Source of the DNA: Actinomycetes bacterium
GTDB taxonomy: Bacteria; Actinomycetota; Acidimicrobiia; Acidimicrobiales; RAAP-2
Direction of reading: 5' to 3'
Length of the DNA: 38,053 bases
Assembly (NCBI GenBank): GCA_021791615.1
Contig: JAJYWG010000130.1
Span: 1-38,053, forward strand
Shown in pieces: positions 2,863 to 28,656 of the stretch (position 1 is the stretch's first letter; each line of letters opens with the position of its first letter). The notes below the pieces were generated by a model, which did no database searches, was not told the DNA's origin, and saw only the letters and a list, made by a program, of their open reading frames with translations. The position numbers were made by a program, and so were the translations under genes.

Positions 2863-3008
2863 GAGAGGCGCTCCATGCTGGCGGCGGTACGGATCGCATG
2901 TTCCATGAACATGACCTCCTCTGTGTGGTGCGACCGGCGATCTCCGGATGAGATCTCCTCTTCGAGTCGCATGCCACAGACGAGGCAGAGGCGGTCGTCA
3001 TGACTCAC
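2859..3008 (-). CDS. Small CxxC protein (49 aa), unknown
   Basis: A GTG start at 3008 gives a 49-aa product with DRLCLVCGMRLEEE, one CxxC pair that could be half of a zinc ribbon, and HH further on. It overlaps the methyltransferase stop by 11 bp (2998-3008), and its TGA overlaps the next ATG (ATGA), so it sits inside an unbroken chain of coupled genes. That packing is the main reason to believe it is real. Function unknown. Confidence 0.5.
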   Translation of the reverse strand: MSHDDRLCLVCGMRLEEEISSGDRRSHHTEEVMFMEHAIRTAASMERLS

Positions 3009-11059: not shown

Positions 11060-11207
11060 TACGCGTGCTTCACTCCGTCTTGCAGAACGTCAAGGTGCGG
11101 GGTCTTCCACTACAACATGCTCCGATCCGCCCTGAGGGAACTGTCATACCCAGCCTCTACGCTGCTCCTTTCTCGCGGAGCGGAGCGCTGAGAGGAGGTA
11201 CGCGTTG

Positions 11208-14200
11208 ATGAAGATTTCGGACCTGACGACCGGCTCCTGGGCCCACGGCCTAGCTGGTGAAGGTGCCGTCGAAATCCTCCTCGTCGAGCCGCACGGCGAC
11301 ACCGCAGCCACCGTAACCTGGCGCGACGCCAACGGACGGACCGACTCGCGCCTTGTGTACGAGGATGATTTGGCTCGCCTAAAGGTCGAAGCAGCTGGCC
11401 GCAATTGGACTTTCGACGCTGACGCCGACGAGTTTCTTCTCGCCAGCGAGGCCCGGCGGCTCTCGATGGCGCATCTCTTCGACCCGCTCTTGGCGGTCAA
11501 CGCCAGCGCCATCGACCCGCTGCCGCACCAGATCCGAGCTGTCTACGGCGAGATGCTGAACCGCCTGCCCCTGCGCTACCTCTTGGCCGACGACCCAGGG
11601 GCGGGCAAGACGATCATGGCGGGGCTGCTCATCAAGGAGCTGATGCTCCGTGGCGACCTACGCCGCTGCCTCATCGTGGCCCCAGGCAACCTGGTGGAGC
11701 AGTGGCAGGATGAGCTGGGCGAGCGGTTCGGCCTCGAATTCTTCATCCTCACCAATCAAGACATCGAAGCGTCGAGGATTGGCAACCCCTTCGAGGAGAG
11801 GAATCTTCGCATCGCTCGCCTCGATCATCTGGCCCGCAACGAGGACCTTGTGTCGCTGGCCGGTGCCGTCGAGTGGGACCTGGTCGTTGTCGACGAGGCC
11901 CACAAGATGAGCGCTTCGTACTATGGCAACGAATTGAAGCGTACCAAGCGCTATATCCTCGGCGAGGCGCTTGGCCGGGCCACCCGGAATATCCTCCTCA
12001 TGACCGCCACTCCCCACTCGGGGCACGAGGACCAGTTCCAGCCGTTCATGGCGCTCATCGACCCGGACCGCTTTGCGGGCCGGCCGCAGGACAATCACGG
12101 CACTGACGTGTCTGATCTCATGCGCAGGATGTTGAAGGAGGACCTCCTCCGCTTCGATGGGACGCCTTTGTTCACTGAACGCCGGGCCTACACCGTCAAC
12201 TACGACCTCTCGGAGCCAGAGGCCCGTCTGTATGAGAAGGTGACGAACTACGTCACCGACGAGATGAATCGGGCTGACCGCCTCGGTGAGGGGCAGGGCA
12301 GGCGGCGCAACACCGTCGGTTTTGCTCTGACGGTATTGCAACGGCGCCTCGCATCTTCCCCCGCTGCCATCCTCCGCTCCCTTGAACGTCGCCAGGAGCG
12401 GCTCATGGCTCGGCTGGAGGATGCGCTGGCGGGCAATCAGAGCGCTCTTTCTCGCGGGCCTGAAATGACCGACGACGAGATCGAGGACTTCGACGACCTG
12501 CCAGACGAAGAGCGGGAAGAACGCGAAGACGAACTAGTCGACGAGGCAACCGCTGCCGCCACGATCGCCGAACTCGAAGCCGAGATTCAGACGCTGATCG
12601 GACTCGTACGGCTCGCTGTAGAGGTCCGCCGGTCGGACACCGACAAGAAGTGGGAGGAGCTTCGGGGCCTTCTCTCAGACGACCCTGAGATGTGGGAGGA
12701 GTCCGGGAAGCGCCGTAAGGTCATCATCTTCACTGAGTACAAAGACACCCTCAACTACCTGACCGAGCGCCTTCGCAACCACCTGGGGAGGGACCAGGCC
12801 GTCGTCGCCATCGACGGCAGCACCAAGCGCAAGGACCGCAAGGACCGCCAGGAATCCTTCACCGTCGACCCGGACGTGACGTTCCTCGTCGCCACTGACG
12901 CAGCTGGGGAGGGCATCAACCTCCAACGGGCGAACCTGCTCGTCAACTACGACCTGCCGTGGAACCCGAACCGCATCGAGCAACGCTTCGGCCGTATCCA
13001 TCGCATCGGGCAGACTGAGGTCTGCCACATGTGGAATCTGGTGGCGACCGAGACCCGGGAGGGGGACGTGTACAACCGCCTCCTCCTAAAGCTTGATCAG
13101 GAACGGCTGTCGCTCGGCGGTCGAGTGTTCGATGTCCTCGGACAGGTATTCGCCGGTGACGAGTTGAAGCGGCTTCTCATCGAGGCGGTCCGCTACGGAA
13201 ACCAGCCGGAGGTGAAGGCTCGCCTCGAACGGGTGATCGACGAGCACGTGAGCGACGGCCTCCGGGAAGTGCTGGCGGAGCAGGCCCTGCACTCGCAGAT
13301 GATGAGCCTGGCCGACGTCGAGGAGATCCGTCTCGACATGGAGCGCGCCGCCGCCCGGCGACTCCAGCCTCACTTCATCCGGCTCTTCTTCGAGCAGGCC
13401 TTCGAGAAGATCGGCGGCCGAATGACCCGACGGGAAGAGGGACGCTACGAGATCACCCATGTTCCCGCCGCGGCTCGCGACAGGGAGGGACGCGGCGGCT
13501 CTGGAGTGTCGGTGCAGCGCAGGTACGAACGGGTCACCTTCGAGCGGGAAAGGATGCTCGTGCCTGGCCGCCCCCCCGCGTCGCTCATCGCCCCCGGGCA
13601 TCCGCTATTCGACGCAGTGCTTGGCCTCACCCTTGAGCGTGACGGCGGCCTTCTTGAGCAGGGGACCGTCCTGATTGACGACGGCGACCAGGGTGACCAA
13701 CCACGCCTGCTCACCTACCTCGAACACTCCATCACCGACGGCAGAACGACGGCAGCCGGGCGTGCGATGACCGTGTCGCGCCGCTTCCAGTTCGTATTTA
13801 TGAACGCAGAGGGACAGACCACTGGCACCGAGGGTGCTCCCTATCTGGACTACCGAGCGGCCACCTCGGATGAGCTGGCAACCGTCGAGGGTCTCCGGGC
13901 CGAGAGCTGGGTCCGAAACGACGTGGAGAAGCGGGCAGTCGACTACGCGATCGGCCAACTTGCCCCAGAACACCTCGCCCAGGTGAAGGCGCACATCGCT
14001 GCCCGGATAGACAAGACCGAGCAGAAGGTCCGCGAGCGCCTTCTACGTGTTATCGCCGAGTGGGACAGCCGGGCGAACCGGTTCGCCGAGCAGGAGGCGT
14101 CAGGCCGTCAACCGAAGATGAACGCCCAGGCGGCTCGGGACCGGGCGGCGGAATTTGACAGCCGCCTCCAGAGGCGCCTTGCCGAGCTAGAGCGGGAACG

Positions 14201-14696
14201 CCAGCTTGCTCCGCAGCGTCCGCTCGTCGTCGGGGCCGCACTGGTGGTTCCGGTCGGGTTGCTTCATCGGCTCACGGGCAACCCCGATCCCCTGGCAGCG
14301 CGGTTCGCTCAGGAGACCGTGCGAGTCGAGCGCATCGCCGTCGATGCCGTGAAAGCGGCCGAATGTGCGCTTGGACGGCAGCCGCACGAGATGCCGCACA
14401 ACAACCCCGGCTACGACGTGGAATCCAAAGCCGGCTGGGGGGAGCTGCTCTTCCTTGAGGTGAAGGGGCGGGTTGCGGGAGCACGCACCGTCACGATCAC
14501 TCGCAACGAGATCCTGACCGGGCTCAACAAGGGCGACCACTTCATCCTCGCTCTGGTTCGGGTAGCCGAGGATGATTCCACGGAGGTCCGGTACATCTAC
14601 GACCCCTTTGTTGGGCGTGATGATGCGCTCGCCGGGGTAGCCAGCGTCAACTACGAGTTCGAGCATTTCTGGGAGAGGGCTGAGGCACCTCGATGA
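11208..14696 (+). CDS. SNF2-type helicase with C-terminal DUF3883 (defence-associated)
   Basis: This 1162-aa protein has SF2/SNF2 motifs: LADDPGAGKTIMAGLL (Walker A, residues 129-135), VVVDEAHKMS (DEAH 229-232), LLMTATPHSG, VIIFTEYKDTLNYL, ATDAAGEGINLQ and RFGRIHRIGQ. The C-terminus (GYDVESKAGWGELLFLEVKGR near residue 1070) is a DUF3883 domain, found on many defence helicases and restriction-like proteins. It probably translocates on DNA in the complex with the next two genes. ATG 11208 lies 9 nt after AGGAGG; TTG 11205 is an alternative. It overlaps the DNA methylase gene by 4 bp (ATGA). It resembles the helicase of DISARM class 1 (DrmD), but DrmA, DrmB and DrmC are absent. Confidence 0.85.
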   Translation: MKISDLTTGSWAHGLAGEGAVEILLVEPHGDTAATVTWRDANGRTDSRLVYEDDLARLKVEAAGRNWTFDADADEFLLASEARRLSMAHLFDPLLAVNASAIDPLPHQIRAVYGEMLNRLPLRYLLADDPGAGKTIMAGLLIKELMLRGDLRRCLIVAPGNLVEQWQDELGERFGLEFFILTNQDIEASRIGNPFEERNLRIARLDHLARNEDLVSLAGAVEWDLVVVDEAHKMSASYYGNELKRTKRYILGEALGRATRNILLMTATPHSGHEDQFQPFMALIDPDRFAGRPQDNHGTDVSDLMRRMLKEDLLRFDGTPLFTERRAYTVNYDLSEPEARLYEKVTNYVTDEMNRADRLGEGQGRRRNTVGFALTVLQRRLASSPAAILRSLERRQERLMARLEDALAGNQSALSRGPEMTDDEIEDFDDLPDEEREEREDELVDEATAAATIAELEAEIQTLIGLVRLAVEVRRSDTDKKWEELRGLLSDDPEMWEESGKRRKVIIFTEYKDTLNYLTERLRNHLGRDQAVVAIDGSTKRKDRKDRQESFTVDPDVTFLVATDAAGEGINLQRANLLVNYDLPWNPNRIEQRFGRIHRIGQTEVCHMWNLVATETREGDVYNRLLLKLDQERLSLGGRVFDVLGQVFAGDELKRLLIEAVRYGNQPEVKARLERVIDEHVSDGLREVLAEQALHSQMMSLADVEEIRLDMERAAARRLQPHFIRLFFEQAFEKIGGRMTRREEGRYEITHVPAAARDREGRGGSGVSVQRRYERVTFERERMLVPGRPPASLIAPGHPLFDAVLGLTLERDGGLLEQGTVLIDDGDQGDQPRLLTYLEHSITDGRTTAAGRAMTVSRRFQFVFMNAEGQTTGTEGAPYLDYRAATSDELATVEGLRAESWVRNDVEKRAVDYAIGQLAPEHLAQVKAHIAARIDKTEQKVRERLLRVIAEWDSRANRFAEQEASGRQPKMNAQAARDRAAEFDSRLQRRLAELERERQLAPQRPLVVGAALVVPVGLLHRLTGNPDPLAARFAQETVRVERIAVDAVKAAECALGRQPHEMPHNNPGYDVESKAGWGELLFLEVKGRVAGARTVTITRNEILTGLNKGDHFILALVRVAEDDSTEVRYIYDPFVGRDDALAGVASVNYEFEHFWERAEAPR

Positions 14697-17368
14697 CCGA
14701 CACGCCCTATCGCAAGAAGCTGGTCGAGACGGCCTTGCCACTCGAAGCCATCAACGCCGCATGCAAGGCCGACAAGGACCGCAAGACCGGCACGATCCGG
14801 AACCTTCACAAGTGGTTCGCCCCCATGCCGGTTCCTGCGCTGCGTGCGCTCATCTTCGCCTCCCTCGTGGATGACCCTGAAGACGAGAAGGAGCGAGCAC
14901 GGCTGATGGAGTTGATCGAGGCTCTTGTGGCTTCGGTCGTCTTCAACCCTGATGAGGAGATCCTCGCTGCCGCGAAAAGGGAGATCAGTAACAGTGTCGG
15001 CGAACTTCCGACGGTCCTCGACCCCTTCTGCGGGGGAGGTTCAACGCTTGTCGAGGCGCAGCGTCTTGGTCTGGCAAGCCGCGGCAGCGACCTAAACCCG
15101 ATCCCGGTTCTCATCTCCAAGACTCTGACGGAACTGCCTGCGAAATGCGTTGGCCACAGAGTCCTTCACGGCAATGCCATGTTCAGCGAGGGATCCTCGA
15201 AGGCCTTGGGGGGGTTCTTTGTAGATGTCGAATACTACGCACGACAAATCCGAGATGAGGCATTTCAACGGGTCGGTCATATGTACCCGCTCGCACCGAA
15301 CGGAGACCCTGTAGTTGCTTGGTGGTGGGCAAGAACGGTCGAGAGCCCCGATCCGCGATTTGCCGGCGCACAGGTGCCACTAGTGAACGACTGGTGCTTA
15401 TCGAAGAAGAGGGGAGAAGAAGCCTACGTAGTTCCAATTGTCAATCGCAACTCCAAGACAATCACTTTCAGCATTGCTCGGAGTGCCTCGACATCTCAAT
15501 TGAGTCGAGATATTTGCCTCTTCTCCGGTGCACCCATCCCTCTCGACTATGTGCGCCAACAAGCACAGCAAGTTGGACTCGGAACTCAGATGCTTGCAAT
15601 CATTTCGAGCGGACAACATGGAAGGGCACACTTCGCCCCGACCGAGATTCACTCAAGGGCGGCAATACAGCAGGTTGGGGCAAATATCGATCCAGTTCCA
15701 ATCCCTGAGAAAGCCCTCAGTTTCTCAGCATATCAGTATGGATTCAAGAATTGGTCGGAGCTCTTTACCCACCGCCAGCAATCAATGCTTGAAGCGTTCG
15801 CGAAGGCCACGGCACACATATCGAGTGACGTAGTGGCCGAGGGAGGATCGACCGAGTATGCAAGAGCGATCGAGACGTTCTTGGGCCTCTGTGTTGGGAA
15901 GCTCGCCCAAGCCTCCTCCATGTTGGTGAAATGGCGTACCCGCAATGGCACGAGCAAAGCTGAGATCGCCGTAAGCAGACACGACATCTCGCCTCTCCTG
16001 GATTTTGCGGAGACCAATCCGTTCGGCGGATCCGTTGGAGATTGGATGGGCATCGTAACCAACGCCTTGCGCGCCTTGAATCTGGTCGACCCGACGGGAC
16101 CTGGCTCAGTGGTCGTGATGTCCGATGCAAGGACGGCGTCAGAAGGTCTTGACGGTCAGTGTCTCGTCGTCACTGACCCCCCATACTTCTCCGCCATTGG
16201 GTACGCCAATGTGTCGGATTATTTTTATCCGTGGCTGCGTCTTTCGTTGAAAGACTTGTACCCTGACCTGTTTTCGACTATCGGTGCGCCGAAAGTTGGT
16301 GAGCTGATCGCCGAACCAGCGCGCCACGCCACCCGGCACGATGCCAAACAGTACTTCATCGACGGGTTTACTGACGTAATCGGGTCACTTAGGGCAGCGA
16401 GTCGTCCCGATCTTCCATTGCTAATTGTCTACGCATATAAGGAACAGGAGTCAGAGGAGGGCGGGCAGGTATCGACCGGCTGGGAAGCCATGCTCGAAGC
16501 GGTCATACGTTCAGGACTAGCCGTAATCGGAACCTGGCCCATACGTGGAACCAGCTCCAGTGGTATCCGCGATGTCAAGGCTAACGCGTTGGCCACTTAT
16601 GTTGTGCTTGTATGTCGACCGCGGCCGGCCGTTTCCGGTCGCATATCCCGCCGTGACCTCGTCGCAACCCTTCGAACAGAACTGGGCCCAGCCATTCAAG
16701 TGTTGCAGTCAGCAGCGGTAGCGCCTGTTGACCTTGCGCAGGCAGTCATTGGCCCGGGCATGGCTGTGTTCACCCGTTACCAATCAGTGCTTGAACCTGA
16801 CGGCGCGCCCATGACGGTCCGCTCTGCACTTCTCCTCATCAACTCGGTGCTTGCAGAGGTGCTTGATCAGCAAGAGGGTGAATTTGACTCCGATACGCGG
16901 TGGGCTACCACCTGGTTTGAGCAATTCCAGTTTGGGGAGGCCCCCTCGGGCGAGGCTGACTCATTGGCCAGAGCCAAGGTGACCAGCATCGACGGGCTGG
17001 AGCGGGCTGGCGTCATCGTGACCAGAGGCGGCACTTGTCGTCTTGTTCGGCGGGACGAGCTGGCTCAGGACTATGACCCCGCCCAGGATCGACGCCCCAC
17101 TGTTTGGGAGGCCGTGCAGCACCTCGTGAAGCAACTGTTGGACGGTGGCGAGGAGCAGGCCGCAAGTCTCCTCGCCCGACTCCCCAATAGCGAAGCAGCC
17201 CGGGACCTCGCCTACCGCCTTTACTCCATCTGCGAGCGCAAGGGCTGGGCTGAGGAGGGCGGCGCCTACAACGTGCTGGTCGCTTCCTGGCCGGAGATCG
17301 CCCGCCTCGCCCAACAGCAGCAGACCCAGCAACAGCTTGGCAGCGGGCAACTGCCCGGACTCGGATAG
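14693..17368 (+). CDS. DUF1156 domain DNA methylase (probable adenine-N6)
   Basis: The 891-aa protein opens with the DUF1156 signature (KLVETALPLEAINAACKADKD ... GTIRNLHKWFAPMP). Motif I VLDPFCGGGSTLVEAQ lies near residue 110 and motif IV VVTDPPYFSAIGY near residue 495, which points to adenine-N6 methylation. The roughly 380-residue insert between them probably holds target recognition. The C-terminal 200 residues are helical with a long Gln-rich tail. The ATG overlaps the helicase stop, and the DUF499 ATPase begins 12 bp downstream, so the three form one operon. In such systems the methylase is thought to mark self DNA. The central third is clearly AT-richer than both ends, suggesting replacement of the recognition region. 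Confidence 0.87.
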   Translation: MTDTPYRKKLVETALPLEAINAACKADKDRKTGTIRNLHKWFAPMPVPALRALIFASLVDDPEDEKERARLMELIEALVASVVFNPDEEILAAAKREISNSVGELPTVLDPFCGGGSTLVEAQRLGLASRGSDLNPIPVLISKTLTELPAKCVGHRVLHGNAMFSEGSSKALGGFFVDVEYYARQIRDEAFQRVGHMYPLAPNGDPVVAWWWARTVESPDPRFAGAQVPLVNDWCLSKKRGEEAYVVPIVNRNSKTITFSIARSASTSQLSRDICLFSGAPIPLDYVRQQAQQVGLGTQMLAIISSGQHGRAHFAPTEIHSRAAIQQVGANIDPVPIPEKALSFSAYQYGFKNWSELFTHRQQSMLEAFAKATAHISSDVVAEGGSTEYARAIETFLGLCVGKLAQASSMLVKWRTRNGTSKAEIAVSRHDISPLLDFAETNPFGGSVGDWMGIVTNALRALNLVDPTGPGSVVVMSDARTASEGLDGQCLVVTDPPYFSAIGYANVSDYFYPWLRLSLKDLYPDLFSTIGAPKVGELIAEPARHATRHDAKQYFIDGFTDVIGSLRAASRPDLPLLIVYAYKEQESEEGGQVSTGWEAMLEAVIRSGLAVIGTWPIRGTSSSGIRDVKANALATYVVLVCRPRPAVSGRISRRDLVATLRTELGPAIQVLQSAAVAPVDLAQAVIGPGMAVFTRYQSVLEPDGAPMTVRSALLLINSVLAEVLDQQEGEFDSDTRWATTWFEQFQFGEAPSGEADSLARAKVTSIDGLERAGVIVTRGGTCRLVRRDELAQDYDPAQDRRPTVWEAVQHLVKQLLDGGEEQAASLLARLPNSEAARDLAYRLYSICERKGWAEEGGAYNVLVASWPEIARLAQQQQTQQQLGSGQLPGLG

Positions 17369-17380
17369 GAGCACCAGCAG

Positions 17381-20300
17381 ATGCCCAAGAGCAATCGCCA
17401 GCGAGTCGAGGACGCACTTGACCTTCTCGTCTCAGGCTTCGGACCGTTCGTCGCCGCCGAACTTTCCCGCATGTATCCAGATGACTGGGTGACGCAGTCG
17501 GCTGACCGGGGCGGCTGGGCACGGGAGAAGGGGGGAGCAGATCCCAACCCTTCCGATCCCGACTTCCTGCTCTGGGTCACCATTACCCACTGGCAGAACC
17601 CGTTCCGCAAGGTGCTGGGTCAGCAGGAGCGCAGCTATATCGGCGAGCTGCGGGACGCCCGCCACAAGTGGGCACACAAGGAGTCCTTCACCGCCGACGC
17701 CGCCTACCGCGTCCTCGACACGGCCTACCTCCTCCTGAGCGCGGTAGGTGCGCCGGAAGCGGCGGCTGTGGACGACATCCGCCAGGAAGCTCTGCGCCTT
17801 CGCTTCGAGGAGATGACCAAGAGGGCGACCTCCGCCCCCCTGCCGGGGGTGTCCGTTGCGTCAACCGACTCCGGCCTTCCGGGATGGCGGGAGGTAATAG
17901 AACCTCACGAGGATGTGGCAACTGGGCGCTACCAGCAGGCGGAGTTTGCCGCCGACCTCGCACAGGTGCACCGGGGAAACGGCCTGCCTGAGTACACGGA
18001 TCCGGTGGAATTCTTCCGACGGACCTTCCTCACCCGTGGCCTACGGACCCTGTTGGTCCAGACGGTCCGCAGGCTCGCCGGTCAGGTGGCAGAGCCGGTC
18101 ATCGACCTTCTGACGAACTTCGGTGGCGGAAAGACCCACTCGTTGCTGGCGGTCTTCCACCTCGCAGGGATGGGTCCGGAAGCCTTCAGTCTCCCCGGTA
18201 TGGAAGAGATCGGTGCGGAAGCGGGCGTTGACACTATTCCCTCGAGCGTGACCCGTGCGGTCATCGTGGGAACCGCCCTCTCCCCCCACCGCATCGTGGA
18301 AAAGCCGGACGGCACCTCGGTGAGGACGATCTGGGGCGAAATGGCGTGGCAACTCGCTGGGATGGAGGGCTACAGCCTGGTGGCAAACGAGGACCGGGCG
18401 GGGACGAACCCGGGCAGCGACGCCCTCCAGGAACTGCTCGAACTCTGCTCGCCGTGCATCATCCTCATTGACGAGTGGGTGGCCTATGCCCGCCAGCTCT
18501 GGGGCCGAGACGATCTCCTCGGCGGCAGCTTCGACGCCCAGATGACCTTCGCCCAGTCGCTCGCCGAAGCGGTCAAGGCCGTCCCCACCGCCATGCTTTT
18601 CGTGTCTATCCCAGCGTCGGACCGCTTCAGCGCCTCCTCGGACGTGGAGGAAGGGTCCGCCGACGCGGGCATCGAAGTGGGCGGGGTGGGGGGCCTTGAG
18701 GCTCTCAAGCGCCTGCGTAACGTCATGCACCGCATGGACTCGCCGTGGCAGCCCGCCACGGCCGAAGAGGGATTTGAGATCGTCCGCCGCCGCCTCTTCA
18801 AGCCTCTCAACGCCGAGGGCTTCGCTAAGCGCGACGCCATCGCGCGCCGTTTCGTGGAGATGTACCGCTCGCAGGAGTCCGAGTTTCCGGCGGATAGCCG
18901 GGAGGCGTCTTATGAGGATCGCATCAAGCGCGCCTACCCGATCCACCCGGAGTTTTTCGACCGTCTCTACCAGGACTGGGCGGCCCTGGAGCGCTTTCAG
19001 CGCACCCGTGGGGTCCTGCGGCTCATGGCGGCCGTTGTGCACACTCTGTGGGCCAACGGGGACCAGAACCCGATGATCCTCCCGGCCAGCCTTCCGCTCG
19101 ACGATCAGCAGGTCTTCGAGGAGGTGACGCGACACCTGGAGGACAACTGGAAGCCGGTGGTTGACACCGACATCGACGGGCAAGGCTCCGTGCCGAACGT
19201 CCTCGACCGGGAGGTCCCCGCCCTGGGCCGCCTCCAGGCGGCCAGGAGGGTCGCCCGCACCGTCTTCATCGGCTCAGCTCCGACCATGCAGCGACGCACC
19301 CACGATGGGGCGGCCCCACAGAACCCCAACCGGGGAGTCGAGGATGTACGGGTGAAGCTGGGAAGCGCTCTTCCCGGGGAGAGCATCGCTGTGTTTGGCG
19401 ATGCTCTCCGACGGCTCTCGGACCGGGCCACCCACCTCTACGTCGACGGCTCCCGGTACTGGTACTCGACCGTCCCGTCGGTCGCTAGCACGGCACAGGC
19501 TCTCGCTGAGAGCTACCGGGACGATGAGGTGCACGAGGCGCTCGCCCGGCTTATCCAGGCGCAGACCGACGTCGGCGAATTCGCCCGCGTGCACCGCTGC
19601 CCCCACACCCCCGGAGACGTAGCCGACGAGGCCACGGCGGGGCTCGTGATCTTACGGTCCGAATATCCGTACGCGCCACGCTCGGCATCCTCCGAAGCCC
19701 TCACGGTATCGACGGAGGTCCTCACCCGCCGCTCCGGCGGGGAGCGGACGTACCGGAACATGCTGGTCTTCATGGCGGCCGACCAGAACCGACTGCCGGA
19801 CCTCCTCACTGCCATTCGCCAGCAGATGGCCTGGACGCACATCTTCGACCGCCAAGCCGAGATGAACCTCGACCAGTTCGGGATCACCCAGGCCCGGACC
19901 AAGCGGGACACCGCCGAAGACACCGTTCGTCAGCGGCTCAACGAGACCTACATCTGGCTCCTAGTTCCCGCCCAAACCCCCGACGAGTCTGAGTTCCGCA
20001 TCGAAGCCCTACGGATTAACGGCCAAGGCGGACTTGCCACCAGGGCATCCCGCAAAGCCGTGCCCGACCACCTCAGCAACGTCTACGGAGCGACCAACCT
20101 GCGCCTGGAGCTGGACCGCATCCCCCTCTGGCGGGGCGGTGACCACGTCGATGTGAAGCAGCTCTGGGAAGATTTCGCCCGCTACCCCTTCCTGCCGAGG
20201 TTGAAAGACCAGTCCGTCTTTCTTGCCGCCGTCTCGGCCGGGCCTCAGGGTTTCGCCGTCGAAGAGGAGGGCTTCGGCTACGCCGAGTCCTTCGACGCCG

Positions 20301-20749
20301 AGAACGGCCGGTACCGGGGGCTCGTCATCAACGAATCGGTCGATCGACCCGTGGCCGACGGGAGCAGCTTGCTCGTGATGCCCGGCGTCGCCCTAGCCCA
20401 GCAGCGGGCTGAACGACAGGCGAGCGAAGAAGCGGAGGCCGATGGTGGCGGCGGTTCCGGCACTGACGTCGAACCCAAAGAAAGGCGACCGTCGGGTAGG
20501 CCAGGGCCCGCCCCAGGGGCTCACAGCCACTTCTTCGGCAGGCTCGACGTACCGAATCCAGCTCGGTTGGCGGCGGTGGCTGGAACCATCGCCACTGAGC
20601 TGATTCCACACTTGGCGGCCGCACGCGGCACCAATGTTCGGATCACCATCGAGATCGAAGCCGAGGGACCGGACTTCGACGAGGCTACTGAACGCATAGT
20701 GACTGAGAATGCGCGCACGCTCGGACTCGACCCCGCTGAGTTCGACTGA
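17381..20749 (+). CDS. DUF499 ATPase with N-terminal Swt1-like HEPN domain (defence-associated)
   Basis: The 1122-aa protein begins with a helical domain ending in GELRDARHKWAHKESF. The RHKWAH stretch (residues 94-99) fits the R-x4-6-H motif of HEPN ribonucleases and the Swt1-type HEPN pattern. A DUF499 AAA-like ATPase follows, with Walker A LLTNFGGGKTHSLL (248-252) and Walker B CIILIDEWVAYA (360-365). The C-terminus is low-complexity (EEAEADGGGGSGTD), then a short beta-rich domain (NVRITIEIEAEGPDFDEAT). DUF499 and DUF1156 proteins travel together in anti-phage loci. The HEPN domain could be the killing module and the ATPase its sensor; this is inference. It starts 12 bp after the methylase with GGAGCACCAGCAG upstream. 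Confidence 0.85.
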   Translation: MPKSNRQRVEDALDLLVSGFGPFVAAELSRMYPDDWVTQSADRGGWAREKGGADPNPSDPDFLLWVTITHWQNPFRKVLGQQERSYIGELRDARHKWAHKESFTADAAYRVLDTAYLLLSAVGAPEAAAVDDIRQEALRLRFEEMTKRATSAPLPGVSVASTDSGLPGWREVIEPHEDVATGRYQQAEFAADLAQVHRGNGLPEYTDPVEFFRRTFLTRGLRTLLVQTVRRLAGQVAEPVIDLLTNFGGGKTHSLLAVFHLAGMGPEAFSLPGMEEIGAEAGVDTIPSSVTRAVIVGTALSPHRIVEKPDGTSVRTIWGEMAWQLAGMEGYSLVANEDRAGTNPGSDALQELLELCSPCIILIDEWVAYARQLWGRDDLLGGSFDAQMTFAQSLAEAVKAVPTAMLFVSIPASDRFSASSDVEEGSADAGIEVGGVGGLEALKRLRNVMHRMDSPWQPATAEEGFEIVRRRLFKPLNAEGFAKRDAIARRFVEMYRSQESEFPADSREASYEDRIKRAYPIHPEFFDRLYQDWAALERFQRTRGVLRLMAAVVHTLWANGDQNPMILPASLPLDDQQVFEEVTRHLEDNWKPVVDTDIDGQGSVPNVLDREVPALGRLQAARRVARTVFIGSAPTMQRRTHDGAAPQNPNRGVEDVRVKLGSALPGESIAVFGDALRRLSDRATHLYVDGSRYWYSTVPSVASTAQALAESYRDDEVHEALARLIQAQTDVGEFARVHRCPHTPGDVADEATAGLVILRSEYPYAPRSASSEALTVSTEVLTRRSGGERTYRNMLVFMAADQNRLPDLLTAIRQQMAWTHIFDRQAEMNLDQFGITQARTKRDTAEDTVRQRLNETYIWLLVPAQTPDESEFRIEALRINGQGGLATRASRKAVPDHLSNVYGATNLRLELDRIPLWRGGDHVDVKQLWEDFARYPFLPRLKDQSVFLAAVSAGPQGFAVEEEGFGYAESFDAENGRYRGLVINESVDRPVADGSSLLVMPGVALAQQRAERQASEEAEADGGGGSGTDVEPKERRPSGRPGPAPGAHSHFFGRLDVPNPARLAAVAGTIATELIPHLAAARGTNVRITIEIEAEGPDFDEATERIVTENARTLGLDPAEFD

Positions 20750-20760
20750 GCAAGGAGCCA

Positions 20761-20910
20761 ATGCCGGTACCGCAATCTCATTTTGGAACACACAACTCCG
20801 GGCTTGGGTGAGACGTTGCCGTACACGAAGAACGCTGACGTTCAAGCAGCCGTCGATGCCCTTATTGCTTCAACCCCCACCGCCTGGGTCATGGACAGCC
20901 AGCCTGCGAA
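20761..20910 (+). pseudogene. Frameshifted 5' portion of the OGG-fold gene
   Basis: ATG 20761 has a proper ribosome site (CAAGGAGCCA), but its frame stops at TGA 20809. The neighbouring +2 frame from about 20783 to about 20940 is open and protein-like (VQAAVDALIASTPTAWVMD ... KWNPTTWRTEW), with G/C-rich third positions. The clear OGG-fold frame resumes in the frame of 20761. The simplest reading is one gene beginning at 20761 with two compensating indels, or sequencing errors. Confidence 0.4.
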
Positions 20911-21528
20911 ATGGAATCCGACCACGTGGCGGACCGAGTGGGCCATTACTCTTCTCCACTTCCGAATCCGGCGATGCTTCAAGCGCTCGAGCGGGAGATG
21001 GCCATTCACAAGCTCATCCGGCGACGATTCGTCTTCGGCTATGCAGATGGGAACCCGATTGATCTGCTCATAGGGGCGATGGCGTGGGGCTACGGTACGG
21101 ACAATCGTCGAGGCTCGAAGAATGCCAGGGCCACCCTGACTGCTGGCGATCCACCAGATCGAGTGATTGGAGCCGTCCGGAACGCCCTCGCCACCCAAAG
21201 TACCTCGGCGGGATTCAGCGCGATGTTCGCCGACCGCAAGCCGCGGCTTCCGCGGCTCAACGTCGCATTCGTCACCAAGGTTCTCCACTTCGTAGGCTAC
21301 GAGACGACCGCCCGGCCGCGACCACTCATTTACGACCAACGTGTCGCGCGGGCCTTGGCTCGAATGCCTGACGCCCCGTACATTCCTCACACCGCTGATA
21401 GCAGCGGCATTAGTGGTGATCAATACGAACGCTACTGCGCATGGTCCGAGGAATACGCCCGGCACCATCACACCGAGCCAGTTGTCGTCGAGTACGCCCT
21501 GTTCGATGTCGGGGGGAAGATGGGATAG
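20911..21528 (+). CDS. OGG-fold (8-oxoguanine glycosylase-like) protein, start uncertain
   Basis: The 205-aa frame contains LIRRRFVFGYADGNPIDLLIGAMAWGYGTDNRRG and, later, NVAFVTKVLHFVGYETT followed by RPLIYDQRVARALARM. That arrangement is what I associate with the OGG-fold proteins found in prokaryotic defence loci. These resemble base-excision glycosylases and may recognise or cut modified bases, but activity is untested by sequence alone. The classical HhH-GPD Lys/Asp pair is not evident to me. ATG 20911 lacks a convincing ribosome site, and the gene probably begins at ATG 20761 with frameshifts between. It is the fourth gene of the helicase-methylase-DUF499 operon and converges with the Argonaute pair, whose coding end is 80 bp away. 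Confidence 0.55.
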   Translation: MESDHVADRVGHYSSPLPNPAMLQALEREMAIHKLIRRRFVFGYADGNPIDLLIGAMAWGYGTDNRRGSKNARATLTAGDPPDRVIGAVRNALATQSTSAGFSAMFADRKPRLPRLNVAFVTKVLHFVGYETTARPRPLIYDQRVARALARMPDAPYIPHTADSSGISGDQYERYCAWSEEYARHHHTEPVVVEYALFDVGGKMG

Positions 21529-21608: not shown

Positions 21609-23057
21609 TCACATGAAGAGGCGGTAGTCGTACGGCTGCGGCGCCAGATCGGGGATGTGCTTGATCGTCTTGGCGAGGATCTTGGCGTAGCGAACCGTGC
21701 AGGGCAGCCCGTCGTAGAGGGAGTCGTTGTTCCAGTCCATCTTGCTCAGGGCGAGAACCTGCGCCGCGGCGTGATGCAGCGGCCCCGAACCTGCGTCGCG
21801 GGTCAGGAGCAGTGGCCGCGGAATTCCCTTGCTGCCCTGGAAGAAGCTGTCCTGGCCGCTGATGGTGCCACTCGGTGCGTTGCCACCGACCCAGAGGAGA
21901 ACCGACCGCCCATCCAGTTGGAACGCCGTGCCACGTGCCATGGCGTAGGAGGGATTCGCCCGGTTTTCTCCTCCGCTGCGGGGCGCGTCCAGCGAGACCG
22001 CCCGCCAGGGTGGACGGGTGATGTTGATACATGAAAGGTTCGACGTCGCTCCCCATGCGTCGATGCAGCCGAGGACCTCCTGTTGCTGGAAGGGCGTCTG
22101 CTTATGCACTACTAGTTCGCGAGGGCTGCGCCCAGCGTGGCGATCCTGGTACAACGCGAGGCTCCGTGACATCACCAGACGCATGTCGTCTCTGGTCAGG
22201 AAAGGATTTCGGGGATCGGCACCCTGGCCGACGTCGTATGCGACGAACTCCATGCCGCCACCGTCAGAGTCGAAAACCTGGCTGCAGCACGTTACGAACA
22301 CCGTGGAGCCGTCTGCCCCCGTTCGCACCGCGTAGGAGAGACCGATGTACGCCGTATCGGTGTCCAGTGGCAACTCGCGGGTGCTCAGTTTCCACGGCAC
22401 CCACCCGGCCTTGGCGTACAGCGCCGTACCGAGCCGCCACGCAACGGACGCGCGGCAGCGGTACCTCAGGGCATCATCCGTGACGATCTGCGTGGTGAGG
22501 CCGAGCTGGGCGGCGACCGCCTTCACTGCGTCATGGAGGTCGAAGTCCGTGTCACGGTCCTCGAAGAACGGCTGGAAACGCTGCGGGAGGTAGAAGACGA
22601 TGACGTCGAATCGGTCTCGGACGAGGGACAGCTTGCGAACACCATCGGTGAGAACCTGCGCGAGGTGGTCACCGGGATTGGCGGCGTTGGCCAGGTCCCT
22701 GTCCACGGTCGTTGGCAGGGGGATTTGCGCCGCGTCCTCCGCCGGGCCGAGCTTCACGCGGAAGACCTTTTCGAACCCGGGCCAGGCCGGGAGGTAGGGG
22801 CGGCGCTCGCGGGCCCGCTGCGGGTGCACCAACTCGTTGAGCTGGTCCCGCAGACGCTGGAGATCCTCGGCAGGGCCCAGCAGGGCAATCCGGATTCTGT
22901 CTCCGAATCTCTCCGAGAGCCGCGTGCTAAACGGCCCGAAGTCCTGCAACCCGACCAGGGGGTTGACGGCGACCTGGGATGGATCGGTGGCATCGAAGGC
23001 CAGAAGTGGCTCGTCCAACCGCCAGTAGCCGTGCAGTGCCGAGTCAACGACCTTCAT
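21609..23057 (-). CDS. Short prokaryotic Argonaute (MID-PIWI) of a SPARSA-type pair
   Basis: The 482-aa protein has MID-like sequence (DRFDVIVFYLP) and then PIWI landmarks: LYAKAGWVPWKL, DTAYIGLSYAV, RELVVHKQTPFQQQEVLG and the C-terminal MDWNNDSLYDGLPCTVRYAKILAKTI, finishing in a short hydrophobic tail. It is far shorter than long Argonautes (no PAZ or N domain). The PIWI residues do not show a convincing DEDX slicer tetrad, as expected for short pAgos. Short pAgos use RNA guides to sense invader DNA and activate their partner. Its ATG overlaps the stop of the SIR2-APAZ gene (ATGA, 23054-23057), so the two are made together. Confidence 0.88.
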   Translation of the reverse strand: MKVVDSALHGYWRLDEPLLAFDATDPSQVAVNPLVGLQDFGPFSTRLSERFGDRIRIALLGPAEDLQRLRDQLNELVHPQRARERRPYLPAWPGFEKVFRVKLGPAEDAAQIPLPTTVDRDLANAANPGDHLAQVLTDGVRKLSLVRDRFDVIVFYLPQRFQPFFEDRDTDFDLHDAVKAVAAQLGLTTQIVTDDALRYRCRASVAWRLGTALYAKAGWVPWKLSTRELPLDTDTAYIGLSYAVRTGADGSTVFVTCCSQVFDSDGGGMEFVAYDVGQGADPRNPFLTRDDMRLVMSRSLALYQDRHAGRSPRELVVHKQTPFQQQEVLGCIDAWGATSNLSCINITRPPWRAVSLDAPRSGGENRANPSYAMARGTAFQLDGRSVLLWVGGNAPSGTISGQDSFFQGSKGIPRPLLLTRDAGSGPLHHAAAQVLALSKMDWNNDSLYDGLPCTVRYAKILAKTIKHIPDLAPQPYDYRLFM

Positions 23058-24898
23058 CGGTCATCACCTGCGGGGGCAGCCCGCAACGGCCGGCTGTACG
23101 CCGTTCGTCCCACGATCTCGAAGAAGGGATCCACGCCGGACCCGGTATCCAGGTTCCAGGTCCGGACCTCGCGGGCGTTACGACCACTGCAAAGGACCCG
23201 AACCCATGCGTCGAGGATGGCGTTGACATCCCGGTTGTACCGGGTGGCGCGCCGTTCCCGAATGAAGTCGGCGATCGCCAATCGCTCCTCCGCGGTCTGG
23301 GGGAGGATGCCGTCTTCCGTCTGCCTCCCACCGCGGGGAACCCAAACTTCGGGAACGAGAAGCAGCCACCACCGCCCGACTCGGTAATCCAGGTTGAGCG
23401 TCACGGCCTCCGCCCACGGCAACGTCGTCCGAGGAACCGTTCCCATCAGTCCGTGGCACGCCGACTTGAGTCGGGAGAGAGAGTCCACCGAGGCGTTGGA
23501 GACTCGCACTTGGTGTGCACGACGGGACAAAACGTGACGCAGCCCGTCGGTCCTGCCGAGGCCCAGGGTCAGGGCGTCCAACGCCAGCCCGAGGTCCGGG
23601 GTGTCGGGTTCGGCGGTGTCCCACTCGAAGGGCACCGTCTCATCCCTCACCGAGATCCCCAGCGAAGCGAAGGCGGCGGTGAGCTGTGCATCGTCGCCGA
23701 CGGCCACGAGCTGGCCGCCGGAGCGGCGGGCCACCAGTCCTCGTGCTCGGGACGCCCGGATCGCCTGCTGCAGCTCACGCAGGTCCGCCGGCTTCGCCTC
23801 CTCCAGGACTCGTGCTTCACTCGGAAGGGCGGTGATCGGCAGCGCGTTGAACCGCACGACCGGGTACCCGACGGTGGCACCCGTGGGCAGCGGCGTCGCC
23901 GTCACGATCGGCTTGGGCCGCTTGTGTTCGAGGAGCTGGCGCAGTGGTGCGGCCAGCGTGACCGCCCGCTCGATCTCTGCCGTCATCTCGACGAAGTTGT
24001 CGACGGCAATGGCGGCCACAGTGCGCCCGGCATCCTTCGCCTCGTGCAGAAAGGTCGGGACCTCGGGGGCGAGGGGGTCGGTCGGGCGGTAGCACCAGAA
24101 GATCCCGGACGGGAACGATGCGTGGTCCGTCAACGCATCGTGAAGGACGGCCATCACCGACTCGTCGCGGCCGCTGTACCCGGCTACCACCAACCCGAAC
24201 TTCCCGCACGATGCCCGCAGGACGTGGCGCATGGCAACATCCTGCTCCTGCAGCTCGTCCGGCGTGTTCTTGAGCCTCTTCGAGCGAAAGTCGCCATGGA
24301 CCTTGGCGATCAGGGGCCAGGAGGACTTCTGGAATGCACGGACTGCCTTGTCCGTATCGCCGAGGTCCGCCACCACGATCGACGGTCGCGGGTCAATCTC
24401 GTCGGCGACGGATGCAGCGGCAGTCTCGATGAGGTCGTCGAAGTTGGTAGTGAACACGGTGCTCAACCGGTCCGACACCATCAATGCCGCCATCAGGTAG
24501 TGGCCGTGGTTCGGTGCTACACCACGGCACATCTCGGCGATGAGATCCGCTCGCACGTCGGCGGACGGGTACGCCTTCTCGAACGACGCGGCGTACTCGT
24601 CGTTGTCGCCGGGCTGCGGGAGTGACTGGTTGCCAGCGAAGTAATCAGTGATCAGCCTGCGGGTGTGGGCATCGGCGGAATCGACGTCCTGTTCATCGAG
24701 GCCGTTCTCGCTGCAGTACAGCGCGTGCTTGAACCGCAGAGTCAGCTGACCCGCCGTCGGGATGCCCGACATGACCGATGACCCGGCGCCGATGAGCCAT
24801 GCGAGCTGCGCTCCCTGCACGGCGACGGCGCGTGCCAGAACGCCGAGATCGCCTTCGATGCCAGACACCGACGGCGACGACCGAATCGTGTCGCCCAT
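23054..24898 (-). CDS. SIR2-APAZ protein (NADase effector of short Argonaute)
   Basis: The 614-aa protein starts with a SIR2 domain: LAWLIGAGSSVMSGIPTAGQL (residues 33-52), VFTTNFDDLIETA (Asn152) and IAKVHGDFRSKRL (His201), then LVVAGYSGRDESVM. These retain the Asn and His associated with NAD+ hydrolysis in defence SIR2 domains. The remaining about 300 residues form the APAZ region that substitutes for the missing N/PAZ part of Argonaute and binds it. In SPARSA systems target recognition activates the SIR2 NADase and kills or stalls the infected cell. ATG 24898 follows GAGGTGGATGT. The gene is first of a two-gene minus-strand operon. Confidence 0.88.
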   Translation of the reverse strand: MGDTIRSSPSVSGIEGDLGVLARAVAVQGAQLAWLIGAGSSVMSGIPTAGQLTLRFKHALYCSENGLDEQDVDSADAHTRRLITDYFAGNQSLPQPGDNDEYAASFEKAYPSADVRADLIAEMCRGVAPNHGHYLMAALMVSDRLSTVFTTNFDDLIETAAASVADEIDPRPSIVVADLGDTDKAVRAFQKSSWPLIAKVHGDFRSKRLKNTPDELQEQDVAMRHVLRASCGKFGLVVAGYSGRDESVMAVLHDALTDHASFPSGIFWCYRPTDPLAPEVPTFLHEAKDAGRTVAAIAVDNFVEMTAEIERAVTLAAPLRQLLEHKRPKPIVTATPLPTGATVGYPVVRFNALPITALPSEARVLEEAKPADLRELQQAIRASRARGLVARRSGGQLVAVGDDAQLTAAFASLGISVRDETVPFEWDTAEPDTPDLGLALDALTLGLGRTDGLRHVLSRRAHQVRVSNASVDSLSRLKSACHGLMGTVPRTTLPWAEAVTLNLDYRVGRWWLLLVPEVWVPRGGRQTEDGILPQTAEERLAIADFIRERRATRYNRDVNAILDAWVRVLCSGRNAREVRTWNLDTGSGVDPFFEIVGRTAYSRPLRAAPAGDDR

Positions 24899-25259
24899 AC
24901 ATCCACCTCGATGAGGAGCACAAACAGACCAGTGAGGTCAACGAGCCTACGGCCGGGTTGTCCACAGGTCGCGGACCCTCCGGGCGCTTGGTATTCTTCC
25001 AGGTCAGGGGCCTTTATTGGGAGCCGTGGTTGTCGCTGGGCCCCTCACTGCGCGCCAAGCGCGTTCAACGGAGGCGGTCGTTGCTGTGGCACCCGAACCA
25101 GCACCTCCGGCGAGTCCAGCCTCCCTGGTTGCCCAGACGGACGGCCGTGCGAGGTTGTGGGTGAAAAGCAGGGCGCCACCCGCGCCCCGATTCAACGTGA
25201 CGTAAGCTATGGACCAGGGCATACGCGACAATTCCGCCACCATCCAGAGGGAGGCGATC
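24899..25259 (+). other. Divergent intergenic region between SPARSA and Gabija
   Basis: About 360 bp separate the SIR2-APAZ start from the preferred GajA start. It must hold both promoters, but I find no consensus hexamer pair; TTTATT at 25012-25017 is the only AT-rich block. Short open frames here show no protein-like character. TAAGCT at 25203-25208 just before ATG 25209 could be a -10 for a leaderless start, at low confidence. Confidence 0.5.
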
Positions 25260-26993
25260 GTGAACATCCTGCGGTGCAGGATCGAGAACTACCGGGGATT
25301 TGAGAACGCAGACGTCCTCCCGCGGGGCCACGTCCTACTGGTCGGCGAGCCCAGGTCTGGTCGCAGCGATCTCTTGGCGGCGCTCGGCAAGGTGTTCGAG
25401 GTCGATCTCACGAGGCTGGACGAGAGGGACTTCTTTCGCGGAGACACCAGCCGGGACATCTGCATCGAGGTCACCCTCGGCGATCTCGGTGTCGAACTCG
25501 AGCAGCGCTTCCTCGACGAGCTGGAGTTCTGGGACCCTGACGCTCGGTCGCTGATCCCAGGTAGTGACGAGTTGGGCGACATTCCACCCGACGCCGTGGC
25601 GGTTCTGCGTTTGGCATTTCGCGGACGCTGGGACGACGTCGACGAGCGTGGAGACCAGACGATCTACTGGACCAAGCGAAGCGACCCAGCGTCAGACAAC
25701 CTGCGTCGCGTCCGCCGCGAGGACCGCCAAGCCTTCGCCTTCCACCGATTGCCGGGCGGGAGGCCACTCAACCTCGCTCCCCGGGGACTGCTCCGCTCAG
25801 CACTCTCTGAGAGTGAGGCCGAGGCGCTGACTGTCGCGCTTGAGGAGATGCGCAACGGGATCGACCGACTCTCTGGGGAACTGGCCCTCGCGCTGCCGGT
25901 CATCGGTGCCCTGGCAGCAACGATCGACGTTCTCCGTCCGTACCTGGAAACCGACGCCCCGACCCCGGACGTCGTCCGATTCCTCCCTGATGAGGGTTCT
26001 CTGTCCGGGCTGCTGCGTGCACTCAGCCCGGCTCTGGATCTCGGCGATGGGGTGGGTTTCCTGCCACTGAGCCGGCACGGCTCGACCACGCACGCGCAGA
26101 TTTCCATGGCTGAAGCGATTGCCACCTCACGCCATGACCATGCGGTGGTAGTCGTGGACGACTTTGCCGATTCCCTGGACACCGCGAGTGCGCAGCGGCT
26201 GGCAAGCCTCCTCCGCCGGGCATGCGGGCAGGTGTGGCTGTCGACCAGGCGGCCTGAAGTAGCACGTGGTTTCGAACAACCGGAACTAATCCGTCTAACG
26301 CGGGGGAATGCGCCGGGACAACGACACGTGCACTACGGCTCGATACCGACGACGCGGGCTCAGCGTGTGGCCGCTCGCGAGTTGCACCGCCAGATCCTTC
26401 CGGCCATGACGGCCCGAGCTGTCCTTGTTGTCGAGGGACCGCACGATGCCGCCGCACATGGTGCCCTTGCAGAGCGGCGCGAGGAGATTGATGGCACCCT
26501 TCCGCCCGAAGCACACGGCATCCGGATCATTGACGGCGGTGGCCAGGGTGGAATCGATCAGGCTGCACGATTGGCGGAGATGAGCCGGTCACTCGGCTTT
26601 AGAGTCGTGACCCTGGTGGATTACGACCGGGACGAAGCCGAGGCCGCGTCCCGGCTCGCAGCCCTGCAGGCAGCGGCCGATGTGGTGGTTCGGCTCCCCA
26701 GGGGGATGGCAATCGAGGCTGCGATCCTGGATGACTTGCCAGACGCTGATGTCATCTCAGCCCTCGGCGACGTGGGGGCGACCTACCTCCTCCCGCTGTC
26801 GGCAGGGTGGGAGACCCTGACCGGGAACGACCTGCGCCGAGAAGCGATGCGGGCATTGAAGAGCAACAACGGCCTGCATGCGCAGTTCATCCAAACTCTG
26901 CCGGGAATGCTCCCGACCATGGCGTGCTCGGCATTGGATACCGCCGTCGGGTGCTGCCGCGGAGTTTCTGCGACTGCTTTCGTTCAGCTCTGA
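25260..26993 (+). CDS. gajA: GajA-like OLD-family ATPase/TOPRIM nuclease (Gabija)
   Basis: From GTG 25260 (GGGAGG 5 nt upstream) the protein has 577 residues; ATG 25209 is an in-frame alternative. The N-terminus MNILRCRIENYRGFENADVLP is typical of OLD/RecF-like ABC ATPases. The Walker A is GEPRSGRS (29-36), with Arg35 where Lys is expected. The Walker B region is VVVVDDFADSLD (297-307), lacking the usual EEPE. The C-terminal TOPRIM is well preserved: VLVVEGPHD (Glu392) and VTLVDYDRD (Asp454, Asp456). GajA is a sequence-specific nicking nuclease held off by cellular nucleotides. The 3' end lies 13 bp before the helicase start, the GajA-GajB order of Gabija. The altered ATPase site is unusual. 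Confidence 0.82.
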   Translation: MNILRCRIENYRGFENADVLPRGHVLLVGEPRSGRSDLLAALGKVFEVDLTRLDERDFFRGDTSRDICIEVTLGDLGVELEQRFLDELEFWDPDARSLIPGSDELGDIPPDAVAVLRLAFRGRWDDVDERGDQTIYWTKRSDPASDNLRRVRREDRQAFAFHRLPGGRPLNLAPRGLLRSALSESEAEALTVALEEMRNGIDRLSGELALALPVIGALAATIDVLRPYLETDAPTPDVVRFLPDEGSLSGLLRALSPALDLGDGVGFLPLSRHGSTTHAQISMAEAIATSRHDHAVVVVDDFADSLDTASAQRLASLLRRACGQVWLSTRRPEVARGFEQPELIRLTRGNAPGQRHVHYGSIPTTRAQRVAARELHRQILPAMTARAVLVVEGPHDAAAHGALAERREEIDGTLPPEAHGIRIIDGGGQGGIDQAARLAEMSRSLGFRVVTLVDYDRDEAEAASRLAALQAAADVVVRLPRGMAIEAAILDDLPDADVISALGDVGATYLLPLSAGWETLTGNDLRREAMRALKSNNGLHAQFIQTLPGMLPTMACSALDTAVGCCRGVSATAFVQL

Positions 26994-27006
26994 GGGCCGT
27001 GCCGCC

Positions 27007-28656
27007 ATGACCGTTACATTTGACGATCTGACGCCGGAGCAGCGCGCTGTCGCCGACCTTGATGCACGGACGATCCTTGTACTCGGGGGTGCCGGGGTCG
27101 GGAAGACGACGACGGCATTGTGGACTGCCCGCCGCCAACTAACCAAGCACGGCGCGCTGCAACGGGCTGCTCCCGGTGACCGGGTGCTGTTCGTCACGTT
27201 CTCGCGGACCGCGGTGGCGCAGATCCGGAGCAGGGCCGGCGGGGTCCTCTCGGGGATTGCTGACTCCGTTGAGATCCTTACCTTTCACGGTCTTGCCTAC
27301 CGGCTGGTCTGTTCCTTCGGCCGGTACCTCGGGCATGCAAGCGACCCTGTAATTATCGGGGATGCAAGAACCAAGGTAGGGGCAACGGGCGCCCTCGACG
27401 AAGGGGCTTTGACGTACGACGATCTCTTGCCGTTGGCGCTCCGACTTTTGGACACGCCCGGCCCGATCGGAGATCTCGTGCGGTCGCGGTGGTCACTAGT
27501 GATATGCGACGAGTTCCAGGACACCGATCACGCCGAGTGGCGGCTCTTGGAGCTGCTCGGCTTGCATGCGCGCCTCGTCCTCCTCGCCGACCCCAACCAG
27601 ATGATCTACACCGGCTTCAAGAAGGGCGTGAGTGAAGCTCGTCTGGACGCTGCCCGGGCGCGCGAGGATTGCGTAGAGATTGTTCTGCCACCCGGATCGC
27701 ACCGCGATCCGACGCAGGTGATCCCGGTTGCCGCATCGGAGATCAGATGGCGCCGCTTTGGATCGGAGCCGGTCCTGCGCGCCGTGGAGCTGGGCCGGCT
27801 AGTCGTGCAGACGTATGTTCCGGACAATGACGATGAGCGTGCGGCTGTGATCGCCGGACACCTTGAGCAGCAGCGCACCGACGGGCAGGTCAGTGTCGGT
27901 ATCTACGCCAAGACCAATCAGGATGCGGCGGAGCTGTCCTCCGCCCTGACGAAGAACCACGTCGACCATGTTCCGATCGGCTTTGGAGAAGCATATGGCG
28001 AGGCCCTGCTGGCGATGGTGACGATGTTGGAGTTCGCTGTGGGTCTTCGAGAATGGGGTGGCGTCGCGGAAGCGTTCGCGGTCGTCCTGACGGCGACGGT
28101 CCGGTCGACCAACCCTCCGAGTCTCGCCGTATCACTCACGACCGGCGTGAATTTGCCCCGCATCCTCGGGGAGCGATTGGTGGCTCTGCAGGGCGAATTA
28201 CGAGAAGCGCACGGCGATGCCGGGCGGTTGGCCACCCTGGTCGCTGAAGCGTGGGACCGGCTCGGGTTCACGAGTGGCCGCCGCGCCTGGCAGCGAGCCG
28301 GGCGCAACCTGACCGCCCTCATAGCCCGACAGCGCGGGAGAGGCGCAAAAGAGGTCGTGACGAGACTCGCGCTCTCCATCGCCGGTCTTCGAAACGAAAG
28401 CTTCGTGGAGTTGGACTCTGGCGACAGTGGAGCGATCCAGCTGATGAATTTCCACCAGACCAAGGGGCGTGAGGCTGACGTCGTGATTCTCAGCCACTCA
28501 TCCGATGATTGGTATGGACGAGATGCCGCCGAACCCTTTGACGAGCCGTCCCGGGTGCTGTACGTCTCTCTCACCCGTGCTCGTCACCGTGTCATCGTTC
28601 TCCTCCCGCCGTCGCCGCATCCCCTGGTGGCTCCCTTCTCCGATCTGGCCAGATAG
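27007..28656 (+). CDS. gajB: GajB-like UvrD/Rep superfamily 1 helicase (Gabija)
   Basis: The 549-aa helicase has all core SF1 motifs: LGGAGVGKTTTALW (Walker A, 27-34), FVTFSRTAVAQIR, TFHGLAYRL, VICDEFQDTD (Asp168-Asp172), LLADPNQMIYTGF, MNFHQTKGREADVVIL and VLYVSLTRARHRVIVL. Its short length and the preceding OLD/TOPRIM gene match GajB, which senses DNA ends and works with GajA. ATG 27007 is 13 bp after the GajA stop with GAGGG nearby; an upstream extension would overlap GajA. The helicase motifs look intact, in contrast to the degenerate Walker A of GajA. Confidence 0.85.
   Translation: MTVTFDDLTPEQRAVADLDARTILVLGGAGVGKTTTALWTARRQLTKHGALQRAAPGDRVLFVTFSRTAVAQIRSRAGGVLSGIADSVEILTFHGLAYRLVCSFGRYLGHASDPVIIGDARTKVGATGALDEGALTYDDLLPLALRLLDTPGPIGDLVRSRWSLVICDEFQDTDHAEWRLLELLGLHARLVLLADPNQMIYTGFKKGVSEARLDAARAREDCVEIVLPPGSHRDPTQVIPVAASEIRWRRFGSEPVLRAVELGRLVVQTYVPDNDDERAAVIAGHLEQQRTDGQVSVGIYAKTNQDAAELSSALTKNHVDHVPIGFGEAYGEALLAMVTMLEFAVGLREWGGVAEAFAVVLTATVRSTNPPSLAVSLTTGVNLPRILGERLVALQGELREAHGDAGRLATLVAEAWDRLGFTSGRRAWQRAGRNLTALIARQRGRGAKEVVTRLALSIAGLRNESFVELDSGDSGAIQLMNFHQTKGREADVVILSHSSDDWYGRDAAEPFDEPSRVLYVSLTRARHRVIVLLPPSPHPLVAPFSDLAR

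Follow-up and report, generated by a model that had tools for sequence, protein, structure and literature searches.

A probable HEPN-fused Hma defence operon and a separate OGG-like gene on an actinobacterial contig

We analyzed a stretch of 38,053 nucleotides from an Actinomycetes bacterium of the order Acidimicrobiales (contig JAJYWG010000130.1 of assembly GCA_021791615.1; hereafter the window), which carries a three-gene operon of the Hma type on its forward strand. The first gene (11208..14696) encodes HmaA, an SNF2-type helicase with a C-terminal NOV_C/DUF3883 domain that comprises 1162 amino acids from the ATG at 11208; the HmaA residue numbers used here count from a TTG at 11205 (1163-amino-acid version). 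The second (14693..17368) encodes HmaB, a DUF1156 DNA methyltransferase of 891 amino acids predicted to be of the N6-adenine type, and the third (17381..20749) encodes HmaC, an AAA+ ATPase of 1122 amino acids in which a HEPN_Swt1 domain is joined to DUF499. The genes for HmaA and HmaB overlap by 4 bp and those for HmaB and HmaC are 12 bp apart, which bears out the tight packing of the first three genes noted in a first-pass annotation. That annotation had described a four-gene defence operon by including an OGG-like frame downstream of the gene for HmaC.

Comparison with the PADLOC profiles assigned all three proteins to Hma families. HmaA matched PDLC00659 with E = 0 and 1469 bits (protein residues 1-1162 on positions 1-1172 of the 1176 in the profile), HmaB matched PDLC00660 (E = 2.1e-237), and HmaC matched PDLC00662 (E = 1.1e-282, residues 166-1122). 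The five families named in the first-pass annotation (DUF1156, DUF499, DUF3883, Swt1-HEPN and OGG) were all matched in profile searches. Pfam placed SNF2/Helicase_C and NOV_C (DUF3883) on HmaA, DUF1156 (PF06634, E = 1.7e-11) on HmaB, where N6_N4_Mtase stayed under the cut-off, and HEPN_Swt1 and DUF499 (PF04465, E = 1.9e-32) on HmaC. The motifs GAGKT and DEAH were found at residues 132 and 230 of HmaA, DPFCGGG and DPPY at residues 110 and 495 of HmaB, and GGGKT and IILIDE at residues 248 and 360 of HmaC, where G248, K251, D364 and E365 are invariant in 41 of 41 aligned rows. The three families, their order and the intact motifs of an Hma locus are all legible in the sequence itself.

To judge from its residues, the C-terminus of HmaA is a built-in restriction-endonuclease (REase)-type domain. 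The NOV_C/DUF3883 domain (14325..14597, forward strand; residues 1041-1131; PF13020, E = 2.9e-17) is a predicted PD-(D/E)xK DNase, and its GYD...LEVK residues are intact. When the HmaA of the window was aligned with 19 other HmaA proteins or fragments, all 20 rows kept the Asp and 19 the E-x-K, with locus L131 as the exception. In the literature, DUF3883 on an SNF2 helicase was described as "a novel REase domain" (PMC3710099). An active REase on the helicase was reported for 79% of taxa with Type-1 BREX-related (BR) systems (PMC12839542), and the same paper credits Liu et al. 2024 with the anti-phage activity of an HmaA-type helicase-nuclease. The first-pass annotation had stated that the locus contains neither phospholipase D (PLD) nor any other recognisable DNA nuclease. 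The former statement holds, as no PLD match was obtained with Pfam in the four proteins, while the latter is contradicted by the D...ExK residues of the DUF3883 domain.

The HEPN_Swt1 domain of HmaC (17414..17749, forward strand) occupies residues 12-123 (PF18731, E = 1.2e-26), so that a HEPN match is present in the region of residues 1-110 on which the first-pass model had been staked. Its R-x4-H motif (17660-17677, forward strand) reads RHKWAH and corresponds to R94-H99, again as annotated. Both R and H are kept in 35 of the 41 HmaC rows, the window included. Among the exceptions, L093 (cut by the contig end), L145 and L146 have no letters at this place, the motif is missing from L100 and L144 as aligned here, and L087 has P instead of H. 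Since most rows keep both residues, the HEPN fusion is common rather than special; the HEPN-fused variant was reported in 1370 of 2446 Type-1 BR taxa (PMC12839542). The strong HEPN_Swt1 match and the conserved motif could also mean that HEPN is the main output, acting by abortive RNA cleavage, with HmaA merely a DNA sensor. However, the nuclease residues of HmaA are kept in 19 of 20 rows, and the same taxon counts include Type-1 BR systems that lack HEPN, which means that in general HEPN is not their only output. We therefore consider this explanation unlikely.

We next compared the operon with known systems. Hma (PADLOC; Payne et al. 2021, PMC8565338) is the Type-1 BR system of PMC12839542, and the operon resembles it almost end to end in its three genes and their families, having in common the REase-tailed SNF2 helicase, the DUF1156 methylase and, with the HEPN-fused subset, the HEPN-DUF499 fusion. 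The Ava_2192-type HEPN-DUF499 operons (Anantharaman et al. 2013, PMC3710099), in which a HEPN of the Abi2/Swt1 group sits on a DUF499 ATPase alongside SNF2-DUF3883 and restriction-modification components, apparently represent the same arrangement, and no difference from the window was found in the accessible text. In Type-2 BR, which consists of DUF499, a methylase, an HKD/PLD helicase and DUF3780, the ATPase, methylase and helicase are homologous to those of the window, and partial NCBIfam matches were obtained to DUF499_antiphage (E = 2.1e-33), DUF1156_antiphage (E = 3.4e-22) and, over the helicase part of HmaA, phospholipD_antiphage (E = 5.2e-53). Unlike Type-2 BR, the window showed no PLD/HKD domain and, in agreement with the first-pass annotation, no DUF3780 when 17 of its proteins were compared with Pfam, small frames lying outside the scan. 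The SNF2 helicases DrmD of DISARM (E = 4.6e-126) and BrxHI|BrxHII of Type-3 BREX (E = 5e-100) are related to HmaA, but the match to the HmaA profile is far stronger (1469 bits compared with 420), and no separate Drm or PglZ gene was among the matches listed (the best 25 where tables were long) for 15 window proteins searched against PADLOC. Taken together, the locus is very probably a HEPN-fused Hma (Type-1 BREX-related) system, a predicted three-protein, restriction-modification-like phage defence from which the OGG-like gene is separate. It represents an ordinary example of an already described three-gene system, and no difference was found in its core.

Several points weigh against this assignment. 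The PADLOC profile for HmaC does not cover HEPN, its match starting only at residue 166, and the curated NCBIfam cut-offs for the anti-phage DUF1156, anti-phage DUF499 and DrmD models were missed. We read the first two of these models as representing not Hma but its relative of the PLD/DUF3780 type. No report of defence by the HEPN-fused version of Hma was found in the literature as far as it was accessible. In addition, HmaB is predicted to be a 5-methylcytosine enzyme in PMC8565338 and an N6-adenine enzyme in PMC12839542.

The most likely mode of action is a restriction-modification-like defence with HEPN RNA cleavage as a backup, its catalytic steps being deduced from domains and motifs. 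HmaB would methylate host DNA as a self mark, probably at N6-adenine, and the AAA+ ATPase HmaC would scan and assemble on unmarked DNA. The HmaA helicase would travel along the DNA, where its DUF3883 nuclease would cut, and the HEPN domain of HmaC may cleave RNA as a second output or last resort, probably released on restriction failure. This scheme agrees with the proposals of PMC3710099 and PMC12839542. In PMC7641849, where the same operon is described, DUF499 is suggested to interfere with the replication of foreign DNA. The first-pass model came close to these proposals in assigning the self mark to the methylase, scanning to helicase and ATPase, and an RNA-cleaving output to HEPN. Its distinctive parts, the output unlike classical restriction and the base excision by the OGG-fold protein, did not stand up, given the DNase domain on the helicase and an OGG-like gene that is unlinked and disrupted at its 5' end. 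The locus offers a compact, intact-looking actinobacterial HEPN-fused Hma in which the HEPN and DUF3883 sites can be mutated separately to learn which of them does the work.

The OGG-like frame (20911..21528, forward strand) encodes 205 amino acids and matches PF21790 (E = 9.4e-33, profile positions 14-201) with 114 bits against a cut-off of 27. Rather than following HmaC within 12 bp, as had been annotated, the open frame begins 161 bp past the HmaC stop (20749), and the ATG at 20761, 11 bp past that stop, meets a TGA after 16 codons. An upstream stretch in another frame (approximately 20816..20950, forward strand) codes for the N-terminus of the OGG family; it reads NADVQAAVDALIAS...WRTEW and matches the N-terminus of the relative P0007. 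Since its N-terminal part is encoded in another frame, the 5' part of the OGG-like gene is frame-disrupted, and the gene does not qualify as intact and full-length. K123 and D142, 19 residues apart, are invariant in 23 of 23 rows and may correspond to the catalytic Lys and Asp of hOGG1. The predicted structure has a mean pLDDT (predicted local distance difference test) of 89.9 and resembles OGG/HhH-GPD proteins at a middling Z-score. With Foldseek alone the model gave a best E of 2.3, and a sequence search of the OGG alignment against solved structures gave three matches (best E = 0.03), with no OGG among them. None of 69 pattern matches in viral contigs was confirmed as an OGG relative; four Gordonia plasmid records with OGG relatives were found, two of which were examined. 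Our literature search found nothing on OGG-like/PF21790 proteins, nor on Swt1, HEPN and OGG together, and neither "ogg" nor "glycosylase" occurs in the main text of PMC12839542; the accessible Hma/Type-1 BR literature makes no mention of such a neighbour.

To assess linkage of the OGG-like gene with Hma, neighbourhoods were surveyed from both sides. On the HmaC side, 40 other stretches were hand-picked from Actinomycetota, the only phylum sampled, and consist mostly of long, high-scoring matches. The window's own DNA in G001:C164 was left out, as were partial or lower-scoring matches, e.g., G130:C119, G022, G138, G543, G336 and G573, and the further matches in G529, G547, G546, G463, G448 and G297. 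Some of the 40 are closely related to one another, e.g., L137 and L138. Within the retrieved sequence, HmaB was found in 34 and HmaA in 19, while an OGG profile built here matched none of the 40 and recovered the window copy. Of the 40 stretches, 35 extend 1.5 kb or more beyond HmaC on its downstream side (36 of 41 with the window); the absence of OGG is weak in the other five because less sequence is available (L102, 199 bp; L146, 346 bp; L089, 899 bp; L129, 1032 bp; L132, 1376 bp). When frames of at least 100 amino acids within 2.5 kb downstream of HmaC were grouped as candidates for a recurrent fourth gene, the largest family occurred in 3 of 41 loci, and this idea was rejected. A second HEPN-DUF499 HmaC, 49% identical to that of the window, is present in the nearest genome available (G001:C46; L002/L088) in a frame of 1214-1238 amino acids.

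On the OGG side, one peptide pattern run over genome contigs led to 38 confirmed loci, including the window's own DNA as L011. In the other 37, neither HmaB nor HmaC was matched in the available flanks, which reach at most 10 kb a side and are shorter in some (the shortest locus, L015, has 3,696 bases in all); L012, L014 and L021 contain SNF2-type matches to HmaA without HmaB or HmaC. A sample of 296 genomes from the class contained 7 with OGG and 31 with HmaC, counting fragments, and both occurred together only in G001, which holds the window's own DNA, compared with about 0.7 genomes expected from the product of the two rates. As the OGG loci of this sample hold about 1.5 kb a side, the absence of HmaC there rests on the HmaC scan.

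These results bear on a possible four-gene variant of Hma, with the OGG-like protein serving either as an effector that excises bases or as a partner in repair. It would be consistent with the position of the gene, next after that for HmaC on the same strand, with the OGG-family domain and its invariant K123 and D142, and with the predicted resemblance to the OGG glycosylase fold. The 161-bp gap, the disrupted 5' frame, the mutual absence in the flanks of 40 of 40 HmaC stretches and 37 of 37 OGG loci, and the lack of any family of frames of at least 100 amino acids in more than three of 41 loci within 2.5 kb downstream of HmaC argue against it, making this variant very improbable. A version with an even smaller chance of being correct is that this lineage recruited the OGG-like protein, made from an internal start that preserves most of the domain, as an extra Hma output, so that one locus would combine base excision with the cleavage of both DNA and RNA. 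We judge the OGG-like gene to be a bystander, i.e., a separate, partly disrupted island gene and no component of the system; neither its annotated attachment to the operon nor the four-gene, nuclease-free reading of the locus is supported. The lack of linkage is among the results that the first-pass annotation had itself named as speaking against its model. The locus had seemed novel because a fourth gene appeared attached and the DUF3883 nuclease was missed, and our analysis removes this apparent novelty as a false lead.

Elsewhere, the OGG-like gene was found beside GmrSD-type and UvrD helicase genes (L012), an OLD/TOPRIM gene (L018), an MmeI-type gene (L079), a nucleotidyltransferase gene with DUF6577 (L033), genes for YchF and S-adenosylhomocysteine hydrolase (L005), and a glycosyl hydrolase gene (L044). 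These neighbours, from a Pfam look at 20 of 185 neighbour frames, hint that OGG-like genes may lie in variable or defence regions and have no fixed partner. In the Bacteroidales loci L033 (7664-12064), L034 and L048, the OGG-like gene stands in a repeated gene order; in L033 an FtsK_gamma/winged-helix gene precedes it and a gene with DUF6577 and nucleotidyltransferase domains follows.

Downstream in the window, the reverse strand (21609-24898) encodes a short prokaryotic Argonaute (pAgo; pAgo_I, E = 5e-168) and a SIR2 protein matching Aga_SIR2-PNTD1-PNTD2 (E = 7.8e-152). The short pAgo with its SIR2-APAZ-type partner forms a SPARSA-like pair that is convergent with the Hma operon. On the forward strand (25209-28656) follow a GajA-like gene (OLD/TOPRIM, E = 4e-32) and a GajB-like gene (UvrD, E = 8.7e-53), whose listed frames overlap and which form a divergent Gabija-like pair. 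The OGG-like gene and the short pAgo gene converge, with 80 bp between their ends, and the former might be thought to partner the adjoining SIR2/short-pAgo or Gabija-like genes instead of Hma. However, it lies on the strand opposite to pAgo. Among the OGG loci L003-L048 (L079 and L080 lying outside this test), relatives of pAgo or SIR2 were found in L004 and L011 alone, both of which are the window's own DNA, and the single GajB-like match, in L030, is over 6 kb distant from the OGG-like gene. The probability of such a partnership is close to negligible.

The window also contains genes for an N6/N4 methylase, a Replic_Relax protein and a conjugative coupling-protein-like product on the reverse strand (2998-7321), and, on the forward strand, a frame with rve and tyrosine-integrase domains (29879-31954) and a second integrase (36045-37979). 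With such mobile-element genes on either side of the defence genes, the window appears to be a defence island situated in mobile DNA.

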